From assembly GCA_023910605.1 (NCBI GenBank), contig JAAVVV010000001.1, positions 2,842,698 to 2,906,697 of the forward strand: a stretch of 64,000 nucleotides of DNA, given 5' to 3'. The translations under genes were made by a program, and so were the position numbers. This DNA comes from Bosea sp. (in: a-proteobacteria). Lineage in GTDB: Bacteria; Pseudomonadota; Alphaproteobacteria; Rhizobiales; Beijerinckiaceae. Below are positions 2,982 through 11,358 of this stretch, in pieces (the first letter of the stretch is position 1; each line of letters begins with the position of its first letter). The notes beneath the pieces were generated by a model. That model made no database searches. It was not told where the DNA came from and was given only the letters and a program-made list of their open reading frames with translations.

Positions 2982-2996
2982 TTAACCATTTCTTAA
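2982..2996. promoter_or_regulatory. CtrA-type box upstream of rpfF-like gene
   Basis: Perfect TTAA-N7-TTAA (ttaa at 2982-2985, spacer ccatttc, ttaa at 2993-2996), the alphaproteobacterial CtrA consensus. It lies 84 bases before the preferred ATG of the DSF-synthase-like gene at 3080, a sensible distance for a CtrA-activated promoter. It also lies in the region shared with the divergent ABC ATPase gene. One of three perfect copies in the window, all intergenic. Binding itself is inferred. Confidence 0.65.
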
Positions 2997-3079
2997 TGCT
3001 TTAGTTGAAAAGCACCGGAATCTGGGCCAATTTCGGTGTCGGACCAAGCCAGAACAGCCCCATCGAACCGGTGTTTCCC

Positions 3080-4003
3080 ATGTTGCTCGTCGCCCCGAAG
3101 CAGACCCTGCCGACGCCATCCGCGCAGAATGCGAGCCTGACCGATCTTCCCATCGAGCTGACCTTCCCGGCGCTCGCCTATGACGAGATGAAGGTGCAGT
3201 TCGATCCGAACGAGCGCGCGGCCTGGTGCCAGTTCAACCCCAAGGGCGCACCGAGCTTCACCCGGCCGCTCCTGCGCGACATGCTGCGTTTCAAGAGCGC
3301 TGTCGAGGCGGCGTTCGGCGCCGCGCCCGCTCAGGAGGCGCCGCTGCGCTTTGTGGTCGGCCATTCCGCCCTCCAGGGCGTCTACAATCTTGGCGGCGAC
3401 CTCACCTACTTTGCAGAGGCGATCCGCGCCGGCAATCGCGCTGCGCTCAGCGGCTACGCCCGAGAATGCTGCGAGATGATCTTCAACGTCTACTCCGGCT
3501 TTGGCCTGCCGCTCATCGTGGTGGGCCTGATCGAGGGGGATGCTCTCGGCGGCGGCTTCGAATCGGCGCTGTCCTGCAATGTCCTGGTGGCCGAGAAGCG
3601 CGCGCGCTTCGGCCTGCCCGAGATCATGTTCAATCTCTTTCCCGGCATGGGTGCCTACAGCCTGCTCTCGCGGCGCGTGGGCGCGATCAAGGCCGAGGAG
3701 ATGATCGCCAGCGGGCGGATTTACTCTGCCCAGGAGCTTCACGCCCTCGGCCTTGTCGATGTGCTGGCGGAGGATGGCGAAGGCCCGCAGGCCGTGCGTC
3801 GCTGGATTTCGCAGAACCAGAAACGGCACAGCGTCCTGACCGCGCTGCACGACGTGCGCCGCCGCGTCGGCGGGCTGACGTTGCAGGAGCTCTACGACAT
3901 CACGGATCGCTGGGTCGATGAGGCCATGCGGCTCGATGAATCCAGCCTGCGCCGCATGGAACGCCTTCGTTCCGCCCAAGGCCGCCTGCGTATGGTGAGC
4001 TGA
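3080..4003 (+). CDS. rpfF: RpfF-like DSF synthase (crotonase superfamily)
   Basis: 307 residues. The ATG at 3080 is chosen over an in-frame TTG at 3005 because the TTG lies only 9 bases past the CtrA box. This is a crotonase-fold protein with the details of Xanthomonas RpfF, which makes cis-2-unsaturated fatty acid signals (DSF) by dehydrating 3-hydroxyacyl-ACP and then releasing the acid by thioesterase action. The two catalytic glutamates are visible as GGGFE161 and GLPE181, with the same 20-residue spacing as RpfF Glu141/Glu161. Around them are ALSCNVLVAEKRA and NLFPGMGAYS, and the C-terminal YSAQELHALGLVD and WVDEAMRLDESSLRRMERL match the family along its length. Ordinary enoyl-CoA hydratases lack this combination. 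It is convergent with the rpfC-like gene, as in Xanthomonas. No rpfB (acyl-CoA ligase) is adjacent. Confidence 0.9.
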   Translation: MLLVAPKQTLPTPSAQNASLTDLPIELTFPALAYDEMKVQFDPNERAAWCQFNPKGAPSFTRPLLRDMLRFKSAVEAAFGAAPAQEAPLRFVVGHSALQGVYNLGGDLTYFAEAIRAGNRAALSGYARECCEMIFNVYSGFGLPLIVVGLIEGDALGGGFESALSCNVLVAEKRARFGLPEIMFNLFPGMGAYSLLSRRVGAIKAEEMIASGRIYSAQELHALGLVDVLAEDGEGPQAVRRWISQNQKRHSVLTALHDVRRRVGGLTLQELYDITDRWVDEAMRLDESSLRRMERLRSAQGRLRMVS

Positions 4004-4028
4004 AACGCTTCAGCTCACCATGCGCAGG
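3985..4028. terminator. Shared 20-bp inverted repeat at the rpfF/rpfC convergent ends
   Basis: Arms 3985-4004 and 4009-4028 are complementary over 20 positions with one mismatch (t/c, a wobble in RNA) and a 4-base acgc loop. Both stop codons (tga 4001-4003 on plus; tca 4010-4012 read on minus) lie inside the arms, so RpfF and RpfC both end in LRMVS. There is no following U-tract on either side, so this is probably a bidirectional structural barrier or Rho-assisted end and not a classical intrinsic terminator. Confidence 0.7.
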
Positions 4029-6622
4029 TGGCGCTGCCCCCGCAGCCAGGCCCGCAGCGCTGCATCAGCCTCGGCGAAGCTGTCGCGCAGCAACGCCAGG
4101 CGCTGGTCGCCCGAGCGGGCGAGATCATCCTGGCTGCATTGGCGCCATTCAAGCGCCAGCGTGAACAGCCGTCTGGCGCCGATGTTGGCCGCGCTGCTGC
4201 GCAGGGCGTGAAGGATATCCTGGAATGCGGCCGCATCGAGCCGCTCGGCGGCGGCTTCCATGCGGTTGAGCGTCTGTGTCGAGCTCGACAGGAACTCCTC
4301 GATGAGTTCGCCCATGAAGCCGAGATCGCCCAGCTGCAGCAGGTTCGACAGCGCGACCTCATCTACGACCGGAATCGCTTCAAGATCGACGATGAGCGGC
4401 CCGGGCGCAGCGGTCCCAGGACCGATCATGGGCACGGCGCCGAGCGCGGGAGCGCCATCAGCAACCGGCCCGCGGTCCGCCTCCTGGGGCGGCGCGGAGT
4501 TGCGGCGCGTGCTCATCCGCAGCGCATCGGCCAGTTCGCCCTGCTCGATCGGCTTGTGCAGGCACCCTTCCATACCCGCGTCAAGGCAGCGCTTGCGGGT
4601 GTCTTCGGTGACATCGGCGGTGAGCGCGTAGATGGGGATGCGGATGCCGCCCAGCATCGCGAAGCGGGCCAGTTTTGTGGCCTCCAGCCCGTTCATCACA
4701 GGCATGTTGATGTCCATGAGCACGATATCGAAGCTCTGCTTGACCAGCGCTTCGACGGCATCCTCGCCATTCGACACGATGGTGACCGAGTGGCCATCGC
4801 GCTCCAGCAGCTTACGGATGACGATCTGGTTCGTGGTGTTGTCTTCGGCGACGAGGATGCGCAGGTCGGGAATCGCCTGCCTGGGGTCAGCCGCCAGGTC
4901 GGCATCGCCGGCGGGACCCTTGCCAACGATTTCACCGCCGCCTGCCGCCAGCATGGCCAGCTGCGTGAGCTCCGCCGGCTTCACCGGTCGCGACAGATGC
5001 ACGAGCAGCGGCATCGGCGCCTCCTCAATGCGGCTGTCCGGCCCCCGCATCAGGCCGATGACGCTGCGGCGCAGGGCGCCAAAGTCGCGGTCCATCGCCA
5101 TCAGCCCGGTGCAGACCGACTCGGGCATGGTGTCCGCATCGATCAGCAGCAACCCGCGGCAGCCGCTTTCCATGGTGGCCCTCAGCTCGGCCAGCGCCGC
5201 CGCGCCATCGGTGACGCGAAGGACCTGGCGGCCGCTGCTGGACAAGCGTGTGTAGAGCGCGAAGTCGTGCGACAGAAGCACCACCGGGTGGCGCGCCGCA
5301 GCAGGCGTCTCATCCGGGGCCGGTGCCAGCGCGACAGGCAGGGTGAACCAGAACTCGCTGCCCATGCCCGGCACGCTTATCACGCCGACCTGCCCGCCCT
5401 GCCGCTCGACCAGCTGCTTGACGATGGCGAGGCCAAGGCCGGTGCCGCCGAACCGGTCCATGATCGTGTGGTCGGCCTGCGTGAACTGCTCGAAGATGCT
5501 GGCCTGCGCCGATTTATGGATGCCAATGCCGGTGTCATGCACGCTGAAGCGGAGCGTCGCATTGTCTGGCCCGATCTCCGCAACATCGACCAACACGCGG
5601 ATGCCGCCGCTGCTGGTGAATTTGGTGGCGTTGCCGATCAGGTTGGTGAGGATCTCCTCCAGTTTCTGACGGTTGCCGATGATGCTGGACGGCATGCCTG
5701 CGCCGATTTCGACGCTGAGATAGAGCCCCTTCGCCTCCGCCGAAACGGCCAGCACGCGGCGCACGCCCAGCACCGTCTCGAGAACGGACAGCGGCGCGGT
5801 CTGCATGCGGTCGGCATTGGCTTCCATCCGCGACAGATCGAGGATGGAGTTGATGAGCTTGAGCAGGGAACGGCCGGACATGCCGATCGTCTCGCTCATC
5901 TCGCGCTGCTCACGCGGAATGGCCGAGCCGCGCAGCAGGTCGCTCAGCGTGATGATGGCGTTGAGCGGCGTCCTCAACTCATGGCTGACGCTGGCAAGGA
6001 ACAGGCTCTTGGCCTTGGAAGCCTCCTCAGCCTGCTGCTTGGCCTCCGACAGCTTGCGGATCAGCGCGGAGACATAGGCCGGCAGGAGGAAAAGCCCGGC
6101 CATCAGCCCGAAGGACATCTCGAGATTGTTGTGCCAGGGCGGCGTTGTCAGGATGAGGAGGGCGAAGGCGATGATGGCGCTGATCGCGGCTCCGAGCAGA
6201 TACTTCACGCCAAAGCGGAAGCCATTGCCGAAGATGATCCAGAGATAAAGCGGATAGCCGATGGCGAAAGCGCTCTCGCCCATGTGCATGCCATAGGTCA
6301 GCATGCCGATGTCGAGGCTGATGGCGAGGATGCGCCGGCCGTGCGAGACGCCCGGCTTCGCAAGGATATGCACGAAAAGAACGAGCGAAGCGGCGTAGTA
6401 GATGCCGAACAGCACGAGCGCGTCGTGGAACACATCCTGCGCGGCGTCATGCCCCTTGGACTGTGCGATGACGAGATAAGCCAGCACCACCGTGGAGAGC
6501 ACGATGCGGTTGATCGTCATCTCGTGTTCGCTGTCGGGGCGGCCCTTCAGCCGCCTGCGCACCGCCGACATCATGCGGCGAAGCCTTCCGGGCCTGCGCG
6601 CGGGGTTCGTGGGAGCGTTCAT
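4010..6622 (-). CDS. rpfC: RpfC-like hybrid sensor histidine kinase
   Basis: 870 residues. The N-terminus carries RPDSEHE followed by five to six membrane segments (about 38-188) and no large periplasmic domain. Recognisable RpfC landmarks are PGVSHGRR and WIIFGNGFRFGVKYL. HisKA has SHELRTPLN with His214. HATPase shows the N box (about 323-335), DTGIGI (363-368), FEQF and GTGLGLA. A degenerate receiver-like stretch lies at about 445-555, a true receiver at 586-700 with Asp637 in VLMDINMP, and a C-terminal HPt domain at about 755-860 with His805 in HALRSSAANIG. In Xanthomonas RpfC senses DSF, phosphorylates RpfG and restrains RpfF through its receiver. It overlaps the upstream regulator gene by ATGA, so the two are translationally coupled. 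Confidence 0.9.
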   Translation of the reverse strand: MNAPTNPARRPGRLRRMMSAVRRRLKGRPDSEHEMTINRIVLSTVVLAYLVIAQSKGHDAAQDVFHDALVLFGIYYAASLVLFVHILAKPGVSHGRRILAISLDIGMLTYGMHMGESAFAIGYPLYLWIIFGNGFRFGVKYLLGAAISAIIAFALLILTTPPWHNNLEMSFGLMAGLFLLPAYVSALIRKLSEAKQQAEEASKAKSLFLASVSHELRTPLNAIITLSDLLRGSAIPREQREMSETIGMSGRSLLKLINSILDLSRMEANADRMQTAPLSVLETVLGVRRVLAVSAEAKGLYLSVEIGAGMPSSIIGNRQKLEEILTNLIGNATKFTSSGGIRVLVDVAEIGPDNATLRFSVHDTGIGIHKSAQASIFEQFTQADHTIMDRFGGTGLGLAIVKQLVERQGGQVGVISVPGMGSEFWFTLPVALAPAPDETPAAARHPVVLLSHDFALYTRLSSSGRQVLRVTDGAAALAELRATMESGCRGLLLIDADTMPESVCTGLMAMDRDFGALRRSVIGLMRGPDSRIEEAPMPLLVHLSRPVKPAELTQLAMLAAGGGEIVGKGPAGDADLAADPRQAIPDLRILVAEDNTTNQIVIRKLLERDGHSVTIVSNGEDAVEALVKQSFDIVLMDINMPVMNGLEATKLARFAMLGGIRIPIYALTADVTEDTRKRCLDAGMEGCLHKPIEQGELADALRMSTRRNSAPPQEADRGPVADGAPALGAVPMIGPGTAAPGPLIVDLEAIPVVDEVALSNLLQLGDLGFMGELIEEFLSSSTQTLNRMEAAAERLDAAAFQDILHALRSSAANIGARRLFTLALEWRQCSQDDLARSGDQRLALLRDSFAEADAALRAWLRGQRHLRMVS

Positions 6623-8766
6623 GCCTTGCGGGCCAGACCGGCGCGTCCCAGGGCGAATTCCACGAAGGCGTCGAAGGGCAGCGGCTTGCTGAACAGGTAG
6701 CCCTGGAACTCGTCGCAGCCTTCGCTGGCAAGGAAGTCGCGCTGCGCTTCGGTCTCCACGCCCTCTGCAATGATGGACAAATCAAGGCTGTGGCCAAGCG
6801 CCATCACCGTGCGCACGATCGCGACGTCGTTGGGATCGTGCGGCAGGTTGCGGATGAAGGACTGGTCGATCTTCAGCCGATCCACGGGGAAGCGCTTCAC
6901 ATAGCGCAGCGAGGAATATCCCGTGCCGAAATCGTCGATCGAAATCTCGCAGCCCAGCGCGCGGATCTGCGCAAGCTCCCCCACGAGCGTCTCGCTGTCC
7001 TCCAGCACCGAGCTTTCCGTCAGCTCGAGATCGAGCAGATGCGGATCGAGCCCGCTCTGGCCCAGCGCCCGCGTGACCAGCAGCGGCACGTTGTTCCGCG
7101 TGAACTGCAGCGGCGAGAGGTTCACGCCCACGCGCACCCCCGTCATGCCAAGCTGCTGCCACAGGCGGCCGGCGCGGCAGGCCTCCATCACCACCCATTC
7201 ATTGATCTGGACGATGAAGCCGGTGGCTTCGGCGCGCGGCAGGAAGGCGGCTGGGCTTTGCAGGCCATGGCCCGGCCGGTTCCAGCGGATCAACGCCTCC
7301 CCGCCCGTCAGCCGCCCCGTGGCGGCCTCGATCTGCGGCTGGTAGTGCAGCACGAACTCGCCCCGCTCAAGCGCGAGCTTCAGCTCGGTGTCGAGCGTGG
7401 CGTTGCCGAGCGCTGCGCTCTGCATGTCCGAGGCGTAGAACGCCATGCGGTTGCCGCCATCGGATTTGGCACGGTACATGGCCGTGTCGGCGTGCTTGAG
7501 CAGCGTCGCTCCGTCGGCGGCATCGGCCGGATGCATCGTTACGCCGATGCTGCCTGTGGAGGCCACAAGGCCTGAATCACCCACGAAAGGCTGCGCGATG
7601 ACCTGCAGCATCAGGTCGGAGAACTGGCGTACATCCTCGGGCTTTGCGACAGCGGTCTGCAGCACGGCGAATTCGTCGCCGCCGATGCGCGCGACCGTGT
7701 CCTGCCTGCGTGCGATGTCAGAGAGACGCTGCCCGATGGCGGCGATGTAGGAATCGCCGACGCCATGGCCATGCACATCGTTGATCGCCTTGAAGTCGTC
7801 GAGATCGATCAGATGCAGCGCGAAGGCGCGGTCGCCGCGCCGGGCGCGGGCGATTTCGCGATTGACGCGCTGATGCAGCAAGGTCCTGTTCGGCAGTCCC
7901 GTCAGCGCATCATGATGCGCCATGTGGCGCAGGTAGTTTTCGGCCGCCTTGCGCTCGGAAATGTCGATCGAAGTGGTGAGGACGCCGCAGACGTGTCCAT
8001 TGGCGTCCATCAACGGGGTCTTCGACGACAGGAGGACCCGCTTGGTCCCGGCCTGGTCGGTCAGATCCTCTTCATAGGAGTTGGCGGCGCGGCCGGTTTC
8101 CCAGACCATGCGATCGAGCGCTTTCGAGCGCGCGCCCTGCTCTTCTCCGATGAGGCCCGCAACGGGCTGGCCGACGACCTCGGTCGCGCTCTTGCCAAGC
8201 AGATCAGCCTGGAACGCGTTGGCGAACAGCACCTTGCCGTCGAAATCGGCGCAGCGGACGACCGCCGGAATGCTGTCGATCACCTGCGCGAGGCGCTCGC
8301 GGGAATCACGCATGGCTGACTCATGCGTGCGCTCGCTCTCGATCAGTTCGGCGCGCAGATGATCGGCGCGCTCGGCAAGCAGCAGCTGCTGCCGGCGCAG
8401 CCGGAGCAGGTTGCGCGCCCGGGTGACGAACTCCTGATGATCGACCGGGCTCTGCAGGAAGTCGGTGGCGCCGCATTCGAGCGCGCGCAGCCTGAGGCTG
8501 CGCTCCTCATAGACCGTCAGGACCACCACAGGCACATCCGCCGCGCCGGGCAACTCGCGGAACTGACGCACGAAATCGGCGCCGTCCATATGGGGCATCT
8601 TGAAGTCAGTGATGACCAGATCGACCTGCCGTCCGGCCAGCGAGGCCAACGCGGCCAGCGGGTCCGGAAACGTCTCGACCGTAATGTCATCGGCAATCGA
8701 CTTCGCGAGCCGCGCGAAGATCTGGCGGTTCGTGTACTGATCGTCGAGAATGGCGACTAACGGCAT
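6619..8766 (-). CDS. REC-PAS-GGDEF-EAL response regulator (RpfG position, cyclic-di-GMP turnover)
   Basis: 715 residues. Receiver 1-120 with Asp8/Asp9 and phospho-acceptor Asp54 (ITDFKMPHMDG); its FPDPLAAL, TDFLQSPVD and RARNLLRLRRQQ resemble the RpfG receiver. A helical linker follows to about 155, then PAS to about 275. GGDEF has an intact GGDEF at 362-366 and an intact RxxD inhibitory site (RRQD 353-356). EAL starts at EALIRW (490) and keeps ELTES, DDFGTGYSSL, KIDQSFI, IAEGVE and QGYLF. Both cyclase and phosphodiesterase active sites therefore look competent. It is the first gene of the operon and ends by ATGA overlap at the rpfC-like start, the position rpfG holds in rpfGHC. The usual HD-GYP output domain is absent. 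Confidence 0.93.
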   Translation of the reverse strand: MPLVAILDDQYTNRQIFARLAKSIADDITVETFPDPLAALASLAGRQVDLVITDFKMPHMDGADFVRQFRELPGAADVPVVVLTVYEERSLRLRALECGATDFLQSPVDHQEFVTRARNLLRLRRQQLLLAERADHLRAELIESERTHESAMRDSRERLAQVIDSIPAVVRCADFDGKVLFANAFQADLLGKSATEVVGQPVAGLIGEEQGARSKALDRMVWETGRAANSYEEDLTDQAGTKRVLLSSKTPLMDANGHVCGVLTTSIDISERKAAENYLRHMAHHDALTGLPNRTLLHQRVNREIARARRGDRAFALHLIDLDDFKAINDVHGHGVGDSYIAAIGQRLSDIARRQDTVARIGGDEFAVLQTAVAKPEDVRQFSDLMLQVIAQPFVGDSGLVASTGSIGVTMHPADAADGATLLKHADTAMYRAKSDGGNRMAFYASDMQSAALGNATLDTELKLALERGEFVLHYQPQIEAATGRLTGGEALIRWNRPGHGLQSPAAFLPRAEATGFIVQINEWVVMEACRAGRLWQQLGMTGVRVGVNLSPLQFTRNNVPLLVTRALGQSGLDPHLLDLELTESSVLEDSETLVGELAQIRALGCEISIDDFGTGYSSLRYVKRFPVDRLKIDQSFIRNLPHDPNDVAIVRTVMALGHSLDLSIIAEGVETEAQRDFLASEGCDEFQGYLFSKPLPFDAFVEFALGRAGLARKA

Positions 8767-8871
8767 GGGGGTTAGATCTTTGTTGCACGTGACGACGCGC
8801 GAAAAGCTGACGGATCAATGCGGCCCCGGTATGCGGACCCCTGCATTTTCACAGACTTTGGTTAACGATGC

Positions 8872-8886
8872 GTTCGAGAGCGCCCG
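8872..8886. promoter_or_regulatory. Near-consensus CtrA box before the rpfG/rpfC-like operon
   Basis: ttaa at 8872-8875, spacer cgatgcg, then ttcg at 8883-8886: six of the eight consensus bases with correct spacing. It lies 106 bases upstream of the regulator start at 8766 on the minus strand. Degenerate, so weaker evidence than the box before rpfF, but the matching position on the partner operon is suggestive. Confidence 0.35.
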
Positions 8887-8962: not shown

Positions 8963-9009
8963 TATTAATGGTTCGTCAGGCGCCGGGATCGGCAGCGAGG
9001 GAGCGGGCC

Positions 9010-11358
9010 ATGAAGATTGCGGTGATCGGCGGCGGTCCTGCGGGCCTCTATTTCTCGATCCTGCTCAGGCAGTCGCGGCCCGATGCGGCCATCACCATCC
9101 ATGAGCGCAACCAGGCGGACGACACGTTCGGCTTTGGCGTCGTGTTTTCGGACCAGACGCTGGACACCTTCAAGGCGCATGATCTGGAGAGCTACGAGGC
9201 GATCCGCCGGTCCTTCGCCTACTGGGACGACATAGAGGTGCACTTCAAGGACACGGTGCACCGCATCGGCGGCAACGGCTTCTGCGGCTGCTCACGCCGC
9301 ACCTTGCTGCTTTTGCTCCAGCAGCGAGCGCGCCAGCTCGGCGTGGCGATGGAGTTCGGCGTCGAGATCGCAGACGATACAGGTCTGGATGCCGACCTTA
9401 TCGTCATCGCCGACGGGCTGAACTCGCGCCTGCGCGAGCGCCACCGCGAGCATTTCGGCACGAAGGTCGATCTCAGGCCCAACAAGTTCTCCTGGATGGG
9501 CTCGACCCGCCCCTTCGACGCCTTCAACTACTTCTTCCGCGAGACGGAAGCCGGCGTCTTCATCGCCCATTGCTACCAGTATGAGGCCAATGCCTCGACC
9601 TGGGTGCTCGAGACGACGCCCGAGACCTGGGCCCGCGCCGGCCTCGACATCATGGATGAGCAAGAGAGCGCCCGCTACATGGAGGGCGTCTTCGCGGCCG
9701 AGCTTCAGGGCCACCGCCTTCAGACCAACCGGTCGATCTGGCGCTCCTTCCCCATGCTGCGCAACGAGCGCTGGGTGAAGGACAACATGGTCCTGATCGG
9801 CGACGCCAAGGCCACCGCGCATTACTCGATCGGCTCGGGAACCAAGCTGGCGATGGAGGATGCAATCGCCCTGCACAAGTCGCTGCTGGCGACGGGCAGC
9901 GTGTCGGAGGCGCTGGCCCACTTCGAGACCACCCGCCGCAACGAGGTCGAGCGGACCCAGCACGCGGCCGACACCTCGCTTGTCTGGTTCGAGGAGGTGG
10001 AGCGCTTCTGGGACATGGACCCGACCCAGTTCGCCTTCGGCCTGATGACGCGCGCCAAGGCCATCACCTACGACAACCTCAGGCTGCGCGCTCCGCAATT
10101 CGTTGCGGCGGTCGATGACATGATGGCGCGGGATGTCGCGGCCCGCGGCATCACCGCCGAGCCGCACACGGCCGTGGCGCCCATGTTCCAGCCCTATCGC
10201 CTGCGCGACATGGCTTTGGCCAACCGCGTTGTGGTGTCGCCGATGTGCATGTACTCCGCCAAGGATGGCAGGCCCGGCGACTTCCACCTCGTGCATTACG
10301 GCGCGCGCGCCATGGGCGGCGCAGGGCTGATCTTCACCGAGATGACATGCCCTTCGCCGGAAGCCCGGATCACGCCCGGCTGCACCGGCCTGTGGAACGA
10401 GGCCCAGACGCTGGCGTGGAAGCGCATCGTCGACTTCGTGCATGCCAATGGCGACAGCCGCATCTGCCTCCAGCTCGGCCATGCCGGCCGCAAGGGCGCG
10501 TCAAAACTGATGTGGGACGGCATGGACCGCCCCCTCGCCGAGGGTGGCTGGCCCCTCATCGCCCCATCTGCGCTGCCGTACTATCCGGAAAGCCAGACGC
10601 CGCGCGCAATGGACGAGCAGGACATGGCGCGGGTGACGGCGGATTTCGTGGGGGCCGTGCGCCGCGCGGAGGAGGCCGGCTTCGACATGCTGGAGCTGCA
10701 TTGCGCACATGGCTACCTCTTGGCTTCGTTCATCTCGCCGGTGACCAACCACCGCACCGATGACCATGGCGGCGCTCTGGAAAACCGGCTGCGTTTCCCG
10801 CTACGTGTCTTCGAGGCGATGCGGGCGGCGTGGCCGGCGCACAAGCCGATGTCCGTGCGCATTTCCGCCTCCGACTGGATGGCGGGCGGCCTCACGGCTG
10901 ACGAGGCGGTAGAGGTTTCCAAAGCCTTCGGCCGCGCAGGCGCAGACCTCATCGACGTGTCCTCGGGGCAGACCGCGCCTCAATCGCGGCCGCAATACGG
11001 GCGCATGTTCCAGACGCCCTTCTCGGACCAGATCCGCAACGAGGCCAAGGTGGCCACCATGGCCGTGGGCTCGATCACGGGCGCCGATCAGATCAACACG
11101 ATCATCGCGGCCGGCCGCGCTGATCTGGTGGCGCTAGGCCGTCCGCATCTGGCCGATCCAGCCTTCACCCTGCGCGCGGCGGCCTGGTATGGCGATGCCG
11201 ACCATGTTTCGCCGCGCCAGTATGGCCCCGGCCGCGACGCGCTCTATCGCCAGCTTGAGAAGGAGCGGACCGACCTCGCCGAACTCAGACTCAAGGCCCG
11301 GCCCACCAGCCACGCACCCGCCATGGAGGACACGCTGCCCAGCCTCGCGGCGCAGTGA
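9010..11358 (+). CDS. Bifunctional aryl-CoA monooxygenase/reductase (salicylyl-CoA 5-hydroxylase / 2-aminobenzoyl-CoA monooxygenase-reductase type)
   Basis: 782 residues, start MKIAVIGGGPAGLYF. The N-terminal half is a class A FAD monooxygenase: GGGPAG dinucleotide motif at 7-12, VLIGDAKATAHYSIGSG for FAD ribityl contact. The C-terminal half, from about residue 392 (MFQPYRLRDMALANR), is an Old Yellow Enzyme-type FMN oxidoreductase with PMCMYS, LQLGHAGRKG and HCAHGYLLASF. This fusion is known from the 2-aminobenzoyl-CoA monooxygenase/reductase of Azoarcus evansii and from proteins annotated as salicylyl-CoA 5-hydroxylase/oxidoreductase; both dearomatise or hydroxylate CoA-activated aromatics. 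The CoA ligase and downstream beta-oxidation genes are not beside it, so the substrate is open. Preceded by a palindromic operator candidate. Confidence 0.88.
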   Translation: MKIAVIGGGPAGLYFSILLRQSRPDAAITIHERNQADDTFGFGVVFSDQTLDTFKAHDLESYEAIRRSFAYWDDIEVHFKDTVHRIGGNGFCGCSRRTLLLLLQQRARQLGVAMEFGVEIADDTGLDADLIVIADGLNSRLRERHREHFGTKVDLRPNKFSWMGSTRPFDAFNYFFRETEAGVFIAHCYQYEANASTWVLETTPETWARAGLDIMDEQESARYMEGVFAAELQGHRLQTNRSIWRSFPMLRNERWVKDNMVLIGDAKATAHYSIGSGTKLAMEDAIALHKSLLATGSVSEALAHFETTRRNEVERTQHAADTSLVWFEEVERFWDMDPTQFAFGLMTRAKAITYDNLRLRAPQFVAAVDDMMARDVAARGITAEPHTAVAPMFQPYRLRDMALANRVVVSPMCMYSAKDGRPGDFHLVHYGARAMGGAGLIFTEMTCPSPEARITPGCTGLWNEAQTLAWKRIVDFVHANGDSRICLQLGHAGRKGASKLMWDGMDRPLAEGGWPLIAPSALPYYPESQTPRAMDEQDMARVTADFVGAVRRAEEAGFDMLELHCAHGYLLASFISPVTNHRTDDHGGALENRLRFPLRVFEAMRAAWPAHKPMSVRISASDWMAGGLTADEAVEVSKAFGRAGADLIDVSSGQTAPQSRPQYGRMFQTPFSDQIRNEAKVATMAVGSITGADQINTIIAAGRADLVALGRPHLADPAFTLRAAAWYGDADHVSPRQYGPGRDALYRQLEKERTDLAELRLKARPTSHAPAMEDTLPSLAAQ

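Follow-up and report, generated by a model that had tools for sequence, protein, structure and literature searches.

Gene content and layout of the locus

We analysed a 64,000-nt stretch of DNA (hereafter the window) from the alphaproteobacterium Bosea sp. (assembly GCA_023910605.1, contig JAAVVV010000001.1, positions 2,842,698 to 2,906,697), which carries a locus related to the diffusible signal factor (DSF) quorum-sensing systems: an RpfF-type crotonase, an RpfC-type hybrid histidine kinase, and a response regulator. Judged from its genes, this three-gene set would be expected to make and sense a fatty-acid signal; systems of this kind are best known in plant pathogens, and this one appears to work a different switch. 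The crotonase gene (3080..4003, plus strand; 307 amino acids (aa) from the ATG at 3080, with an in-frame TTG at 3005) converges on a two-gene minus-strand operon in which the regulator (6619..8766, 715 aa), occupying the place of rpfG, comes first and the kinase (4010..6622, 870 aa) second, as in the rpfG-rpfC/rpfF cluster.

All three genes sit where the initial annotation had put them, and the translational coupling that it described is borne out by an ATGA overlap of regulator and kinase (6619-6622, minus strand). Its “receiver protein” does contain a receiver (8416..8757, minus strand; Asp54), but the full identity had been missed: downstream lie PAS_4 (7948..8277, by Pfam), GGDEF (7447..7920) and EAL (6682..7386) domains, all on the minus strand, making a 715-aa REC-PAS_4-GGDEF-EAL protein. 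The GGDEF motif (residues 362-366) and the EAL motifs are both intact, the latter comprising EAL, N549, E581, D611-D612, K632, E668, and Q688, which we take to be the catalytic residues. Identification as RpfG was rejected, as Pfam finds no HD domain, and so was identification as RpfR (FI-PAS-GGDEF-EAL), as the N-terminus is a receiver. The proposed likeness to the Xanthomonas rpfGHC layout thus holds for gene order, but not for the regulator, which has PAS_4-GGDEF-EAL in place of HD-GYP.

The crotonase groups with RpfF by several measures. Glu161 and Glu181, which the initial annotation had named as the catalytic pair, align with Xanthomonas Glu141 and Glu161 at the same spacing of 20, and all ten catalytic and acyl-pocket positions (list from PMC9864630) are identical to those of Xanthomonas and invariant in 35 of 35 RpfF rows of our alignment A6. 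The best PDB sequence matches were RpfF/DfsA (E 2e-52 to 2e-49; next 3e-17). Similarly, a PDB fold search with the predicted structure (mean predicted local distance difference test (pLDDT) 91.4) returned RpfF/DfsA in its first 12 rows (E up to 3e-22), followed by a generic hydratase at 5e-15. A phylogeny against catabolic enoyl-CoA hydratases had been set beforehand as a refutation test; in the resulting 80-row tree, made by a quick method and with a long-branch warning for the outgroup, the crotonase sits with crystallised RpfF/DfsA and is separate from six catabolic crotonases encoded in the same genome (Shimodaira-Hasegawa-like approximate likelihood ratio test (SH-aLRT) 99). It is therefore very improbable that the gene encodes a catabolic hydratase adjoining an unrelated two-component operon by chance. 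Its top NCBIfam model is indeed the general NF006452 (“crotonase/enoyl-CoA hydratase family protein”, 334 bits, cut-off 177), but tree, fold search, and conserved pocket residues reject a catabolic identity, and the co-occurrence and conserved layout described below also contradict chance neighbourhood.

The kinase has the domain order of RpfC, namely an RpfC-type membrane input (residues 1-198; 6029..6622, minus strand) containing the motifs RPDSEHE, PGVSH, and FGNGFRFG, then HisKA, HATPase, a receiver (residues 589-701, Asp637; 4520..4858, minus strand), and an HPt domain (residues 772-854, His805; 4061..4309, minus strand). Its structural model (mean pLDDT 77.1) shows 5-6 helices at the N-terminus, in keeping with an RpfC sensor. 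Xanthomonas RpfC needs R15, D17, S18, E19, and Q22 for DSF sensing (PMC5391125); in the corresponding hook of the window kinase (residues 28-39, RPDSEHEMTINR; 6506..6541, minus strand), four of these five residues are kept (R28, D30, S31, and E32), while Gln22 is replaced by Met35. Between ATPase and receiver (window 4942-5290, residues about 445-560) lies an alternating strand-helix domain without a Pfam name, which on the model is perhaps a degenerate second receiver.

Distribution, divergence, and surroundings of the locus

With a five-row profile of kinase residues 1-198, we searched a class sample of 385 alphaproteobacterial genomes (277 genera) and a phylum sample of 398 genomes. The RpfC sensor was found in 24 class genomes (20 of the 277 genera) and 81 phylum-wide genomes. 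RpfF matches (E up to 1e-45) were likewise present in 24 class genomes, and both proteins occurred together in 22 (Fisher p about 2e-31). Sensor without RpfF was seen in G105, a genome 85 percent complete, and G376, where the locus is on a 5.4-kb contig; G205 and G343 have RpfF without sensor. RpfF was adjacent and convergent at 17 of the 24 class-sample loci, and of the remaining seven, five are at contig edges; L121 and L128 have no neighbouring RpfF, yet carry one elsewhere in the genome. Among 125 inspected loci (including three pairs with identical sensors, L044/L153, L045/L154, and L206/L207), rpfF converged on rpfC in 95 and shared its strand in three, and it was not found in the stretch around rpfC in 27, some of them at contig edges. 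The 80 named loci lean to the window's type, because they are the best 80 of 531 confirmed. Overall, PDB matches, tree, fold search, residues, sensor profile, and co-occurrence strongly support the initial call of a DSF-type synthase/sensor locus; calling it an alphaproteobacterial version was correct, though it is no isolated case.

Two hook states were found in the 120 loci of the 125 with a readable hook: Gln22 with Ile, Val, or Leu25 (33/33), and Met, Ile, or Thr22 with Asn25 (87/87); the pattern admitted M, Q, I, or T at 22 and N, I, V, or L at 25, which five loci did not fit. The 33 Met-type rows of the RpfC tree form one group together with the unreadable L143 (SH-aLRT 99), a grouping not independent of the sensor, as the tree includes sensor columns. 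Met-type hooks are the minority (3/24) in the evenly drawn class sample.

We compared how far the parts of the locus diverge together. Across 68 GGDEF-EAL loci, pairwise RpfF distances followed those of the RpfC sensor with r 0.88, and the partial r was still 0.66-0.67 with regulator and kinase domains held constant (0/500 permutations), compared to 0.11 for the RpfC receiver (17/500). A thinned set (49 of 90 loci kept, all output types) gave the same order more weakly, with partial r of 0.32 for the sensor (0/1000), 0.22 for the ATPase (3), and 0.16 for the receiver (37). By these distances, the synthase co-diverges with the sensor domain more closely than with the other parts of the relay. 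Taken with the change from Gln22 to Met in the hook, this fast linked divergence suggests that the signal or its read-out may differ from Xanthomonas DSF, and to that extent hints at the separate signal chemistry raised in the initial annotation. These data also bear on whether RpfF is mainly a binding partner, or the maker of a product other than a cis-2 acid (e.g., free saturated acids by thioesterase activity), so that the locus would report lipid state and not density. Xylella RpfF takes part in signalling even without its catalytic glutamates (PMC4504480), and the window crotonase does not reach the strict NCBIfam RpfF model; against this, none of the aligned RpfFs departs from the two glutamates or the pocket residues, and RpfF does not track the RpfC receiver, its binding site in Xanthomonas. 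We consider such a role improbable.

Within the genus, the locus occurs at the same chromosomal place in two forms. Relative to the window, the two flanking genes are 81-85 percent identical and the regulator 75-81 percent, compared to 60-76 percent for RpfF and 52-64 percent for RpfC. In the RpfC tree, class A (the window and its nearest loci L150, L151, and L152, all three metagenome-assembled and labelled “Hyphomicrobiales bacterium”) forms one group (100/100) against class B (L043, L044, and L045). Between L150 and L045, mutS is 82.5 percent identical, the flanks 85 and 89, the regulator 77, RpfF 62, and RpfC 48. The grouping derived from mutS, which places L150 and L152 with class B, was rejected for RpfC (approximately unbiased test, p-AU 4.5e-5), whereas RpfF (0.27) and the regulator (0.09) did not reject it. 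This argues against simple vertical inheritance of rpfC within the genus; exchange is argued for RpfC and is compatible with the RpfF data. Support for the mutS order is moderate (90/93), and because rpoB identities to the window (G026, 98.6 percent over 875 residues; L151, 97.2 percent over 1374) differ slightly from that order, the species order of the genus is not settled. Although it comes from only seven records with a provisional species order, the rpfC-rpfF pattern resembles that of a signal cassette exchanged or retained for a long time.

An inverted repeat where rpfF and rpfC meet at their 3' ends (3981..4032; 24 nt, 92 percent, 4-nt loop; RNA fold -51 kcal/mol, z -9.2) probably acts as a two-way terminator hairpin; no such hairpin was found at the equivalent place in L150 and L045 (z 0.0 and -1.0). 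Because this palindrome spans both 3' ends, RpfF and RpfC share the C-terminal residues LRMVS. We rejected these as a conserved tag, as they are absent from both proteins in L043-L045 and from RpfF in L046, L150, and the remaining A6 rows. Beside the locus (window 8968-11358) lies a gene fusing a flavin adenine dinucleotide (FAD)-binding monooxygenase part to a flavin mononucleotide (FMN) oxidoreductase part, which also adjoins the locus in L150, L152, and L043-L045 (84-85 percent identity).

Several other loci show variations on the layout. Inquilinus limosus records and L224 carry, between the regulator and the full-length RpfC, one or two additional short genes resembling RpfC (L198 6737-8729, L224 4870-6587, L225 7858-8769, L228 3107-4871). 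These encode sensor and HisKA but no ATPase domain, and are 274-303 aa long except for a single open frame of 453; decoy or helper receptors are a possible function. The RpfC of L141 (6588-9320) has two tandem sensor domains, and its RpfF is at near-zero distance from PDB 7zq7. G009 and G024 each carry several RpfF-like genes. Both L224 (labelled Mycobacterium sp. KBS0706) and L158 (labelled Burkholderiales bacterium, a metagenome bin) are typical alphaproteobacterial loci, and their labels or bins are probably wrong.

Regulator outputs behind a related receiver-PAS module

We then asked which output stands next to RpfC in the 125 loci, with regulators typed by single-sequence profiles and motifs and one of each kind confirmed by Pfam. 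A receiver with GGDEF-EAL was found in 83, with a histidine-kinase domain in 19, and with HD-GYP in 7, the last only outside Alphaproteobacteria; three were REC-PAS alone, and no neighbouring regulator was found in 13. Kinase was the commonest output in the even class sample (19 of 24), with GGDEF-EAL in four and none in one. The input half is more constant. Pfam found PAS_4 in one GGDEF-EAL, one kinase-type, and one output-less regulator, and 17 of the 19 kinase-type regulators matched the window PAS. The REC-PAS of the kinase-type regulator in L112 matched the window regulator over residues 11-273 (E 7e-69, 46 percent identity), while the next genome-wide match was 1e-12, which argues that REC and PAS_4 are shared by descent with a different output half. 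The output-less regulators, from Roseomonas (L203 2746-3510, with PAS_4 by Pfam; L215 8204-8968; L226 8204-8968), are REC-PAS proteins of 254 aa in the same operon place.

On the RpfC tree, all HD-GYP loci fall on one side of a branch (support 95). Counting starred branches, GGDEF-EAL and kinase output each changed three times or more, and all output labels together required 7 changes compared to 21.7 in shuffles. The receiver tree left the class unresolved, with 31 of its 57 inner branches open.

The persistence of REC-PAS_4 while outputs change, including the PAS matches of the kinase-type regulators, is also what would be expected if the fatty acid were sensed mainly inside the cell by the regulator's PAS_4, comparable to the PAS domains of RpfR and RpfS, with the kinase restraining RpfF or reporting another cue and REC-PAS_4 serving as a two-input receptor. 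However, RpfF tracks the RpfC sensor closest (r 0.88) and the regulator PAS less (0.81), and four residues of the RpfC hook (R, D, S, and E) are retained. In addition, PAS_4 is a broad family, and the 16 PDB matches of the regulator PAS alone begin with BvgS and do not include RpfR. We regard intracellular sensing as unlikely, although less so than a non-signal role of RpfF.

Proposed mechanism and relation to known systems

We propose that the locus encodes a system of the DSF family, with RpfC controlling a c-di-GMP (cyclic dimeric guanosine monophosphate) enzyme by phosphorelay, and that it belongs to a broad alphaproteobacterial branch, a reading to which we assign a probability of roughly 0.78. 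Its basis is the genes, the predicted fold, the catalytic and pocket residues, the conserved layout, the co-occurrence, and the synthase-sensor co-divergence. By its family, RpfF would dehydrate 3-hydroxyacyl-acyl carrier protein and free a cis-2-unsaturated fatty acid, which would leave the cell and be read by the membrane sensor of the kinase. Domains and operon suggest a phosphate path from the kinase histidine to its own receiver, then to HPt, and from there to the receiver of the REC-PAS_4-GGDEF-EAL regulator, which would then alter the c-di-GMP level. A net breakdown of c-di-GMP at high density would be expected by analogy with RpfG. When density is low, RpfC may restrain RpfF via its receiver, as in Xanthomonas.

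Several observations weigh against this proposal. The crotonase scored 210.6 bits against the cut-off of 550 of the strict NCBIfam RpfF equivalog model, for which reason we name it RpfF-type and not an RpfF equivalog; that cut-off suits close kin of Xanthomonas. The kinase model is only fair (predicted template modelling score (pTM) 0.43), and its hook has Met where changing Gln22 to Ala, Glu, or Asn abolished the response in Xanthomonas (PMC5391125). Neither rpfB nor rpfH is at the window locus. In most other members of the genus, RpfF is more distant (about 32-34 percent identity) and an RpfC sensor is absent. That distant RpfF, a long branch in the crotonase tree, adjoins a 775-776 aa PAS_7-GGDEF-EAL protein (L052 5981-9403; L054 4421-7888; L049; L051), and the two are possibly an RpfR-like second type.

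A wider interpretation joins these strands: an unrecognised, broad alphaproteobacterial DSF branch in which a co-evolving synthase-sensor cassette passes its input to a constant REC-PAS_4 adaptor, with an output half that was swapped several times (c-di-GMP enzyme, histidine kinase, or none), and in which the window lineage changed its hook at Gln22 and holds rpfC-rpfF as two strongly diverged allele classes at one place, with regulator and flanks alike, as in pherotype switching. We put this forward tentatively, as having somewhat less than an even chance; if it were true, lineage-private signal variants would follow. The naturally occurring regulator types behind related receivers (HD-GYP, GGDEF-EAL, histidine kinase, and none) make the rewiring of a quorum-sensing input to new outputs testable, and the two hook states with their co-diverging synthases offer a natural series for finding determinants of signal specificity.

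DSF systems have been described in Xanthomonadaceae, Burkholderia, Enterobacteriaceae, Pseudomonas, Leptospirillum and Acidithiobacillus (the last two in PMC9040811), a few methylotrophs, and Thiobacillus; rpfF-rpfG-rpfC is named in Methylophaga, Leptospirillum, Thiobacillus, and Methylobacillus (PMC4504480). In the available text of PMC9040811, which studied the alphaproteobacterial genus Acidiphilium, no RpfF/RpfC system is reported for it, and that of PMC10226988 concerns an alphaproteobacterial RpfB-like FadD with a possible role in degrading foreign DSF, and neither RpfF nor RpfC. We found no report of an RpfF-RpfC pair in Alphaproteobacteria in searches of the open-licence PMC literature. 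As the window synthase passes only the general crotonase model of NCBI, alphaproteobacterial rpfF genes are probably hidden under the crotonase label.

Compared to RpfF-RpfC-RpfG of Xanthomonas and relatives, the locus has the same synthase, sensor domain, kinase-receiver-HPt order, regulator gene before sensor gene, and convergent rpfF, with c-di-GMP as the likely output; it differs in its regulator (REC-PAS_4-GGDEF-EAL versus REC-HD-GYP), in the hook (Gln22 to Met), and in having no rpfB or rpfH beside it. The 870-aa kinase also contrasts with 717-761 aa in most HD-GYP loci (L135, L137, L139, and L144), although L136, L141, and L142 have 841-910 aa. RpfF-RpfR of Burkholderia, Cronobacter, and others similarly sets RpfF beside a PAS-GGDEF-EAL protein, but in the window a receiver takes the place of the FI domain, the membrane kinase is a separate protein, and the PAS is not close to RpfR by sequence. 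PA1396/PA1397 of Pseudomonas aeruginosa shares the RpfC-like five-helix input domain (PMC6536496); unlike the window kinase, PA1396 is without HPt, has a DNA-binding regulator as partner, and senses the DSF of other species (PMC4504480). A parallel to the two allele classes is rpf-1/rpf-2 of Stenotrophomonas maltophilia, two RpfF-RpfC classes at one locus (PMC4504480), whereas the classes here are found in different species of a single genus, the regulator is REC-PAS_4-GGDEF-EAL, and RpfC and RpfF have diverged far more than regulator and flanks. By its domains, the window regulator belongs to neither RpfG nor RpfR: the system would work like RpfF-RpfC-RpfG, with an output enzyme of the same kind as RpfR.

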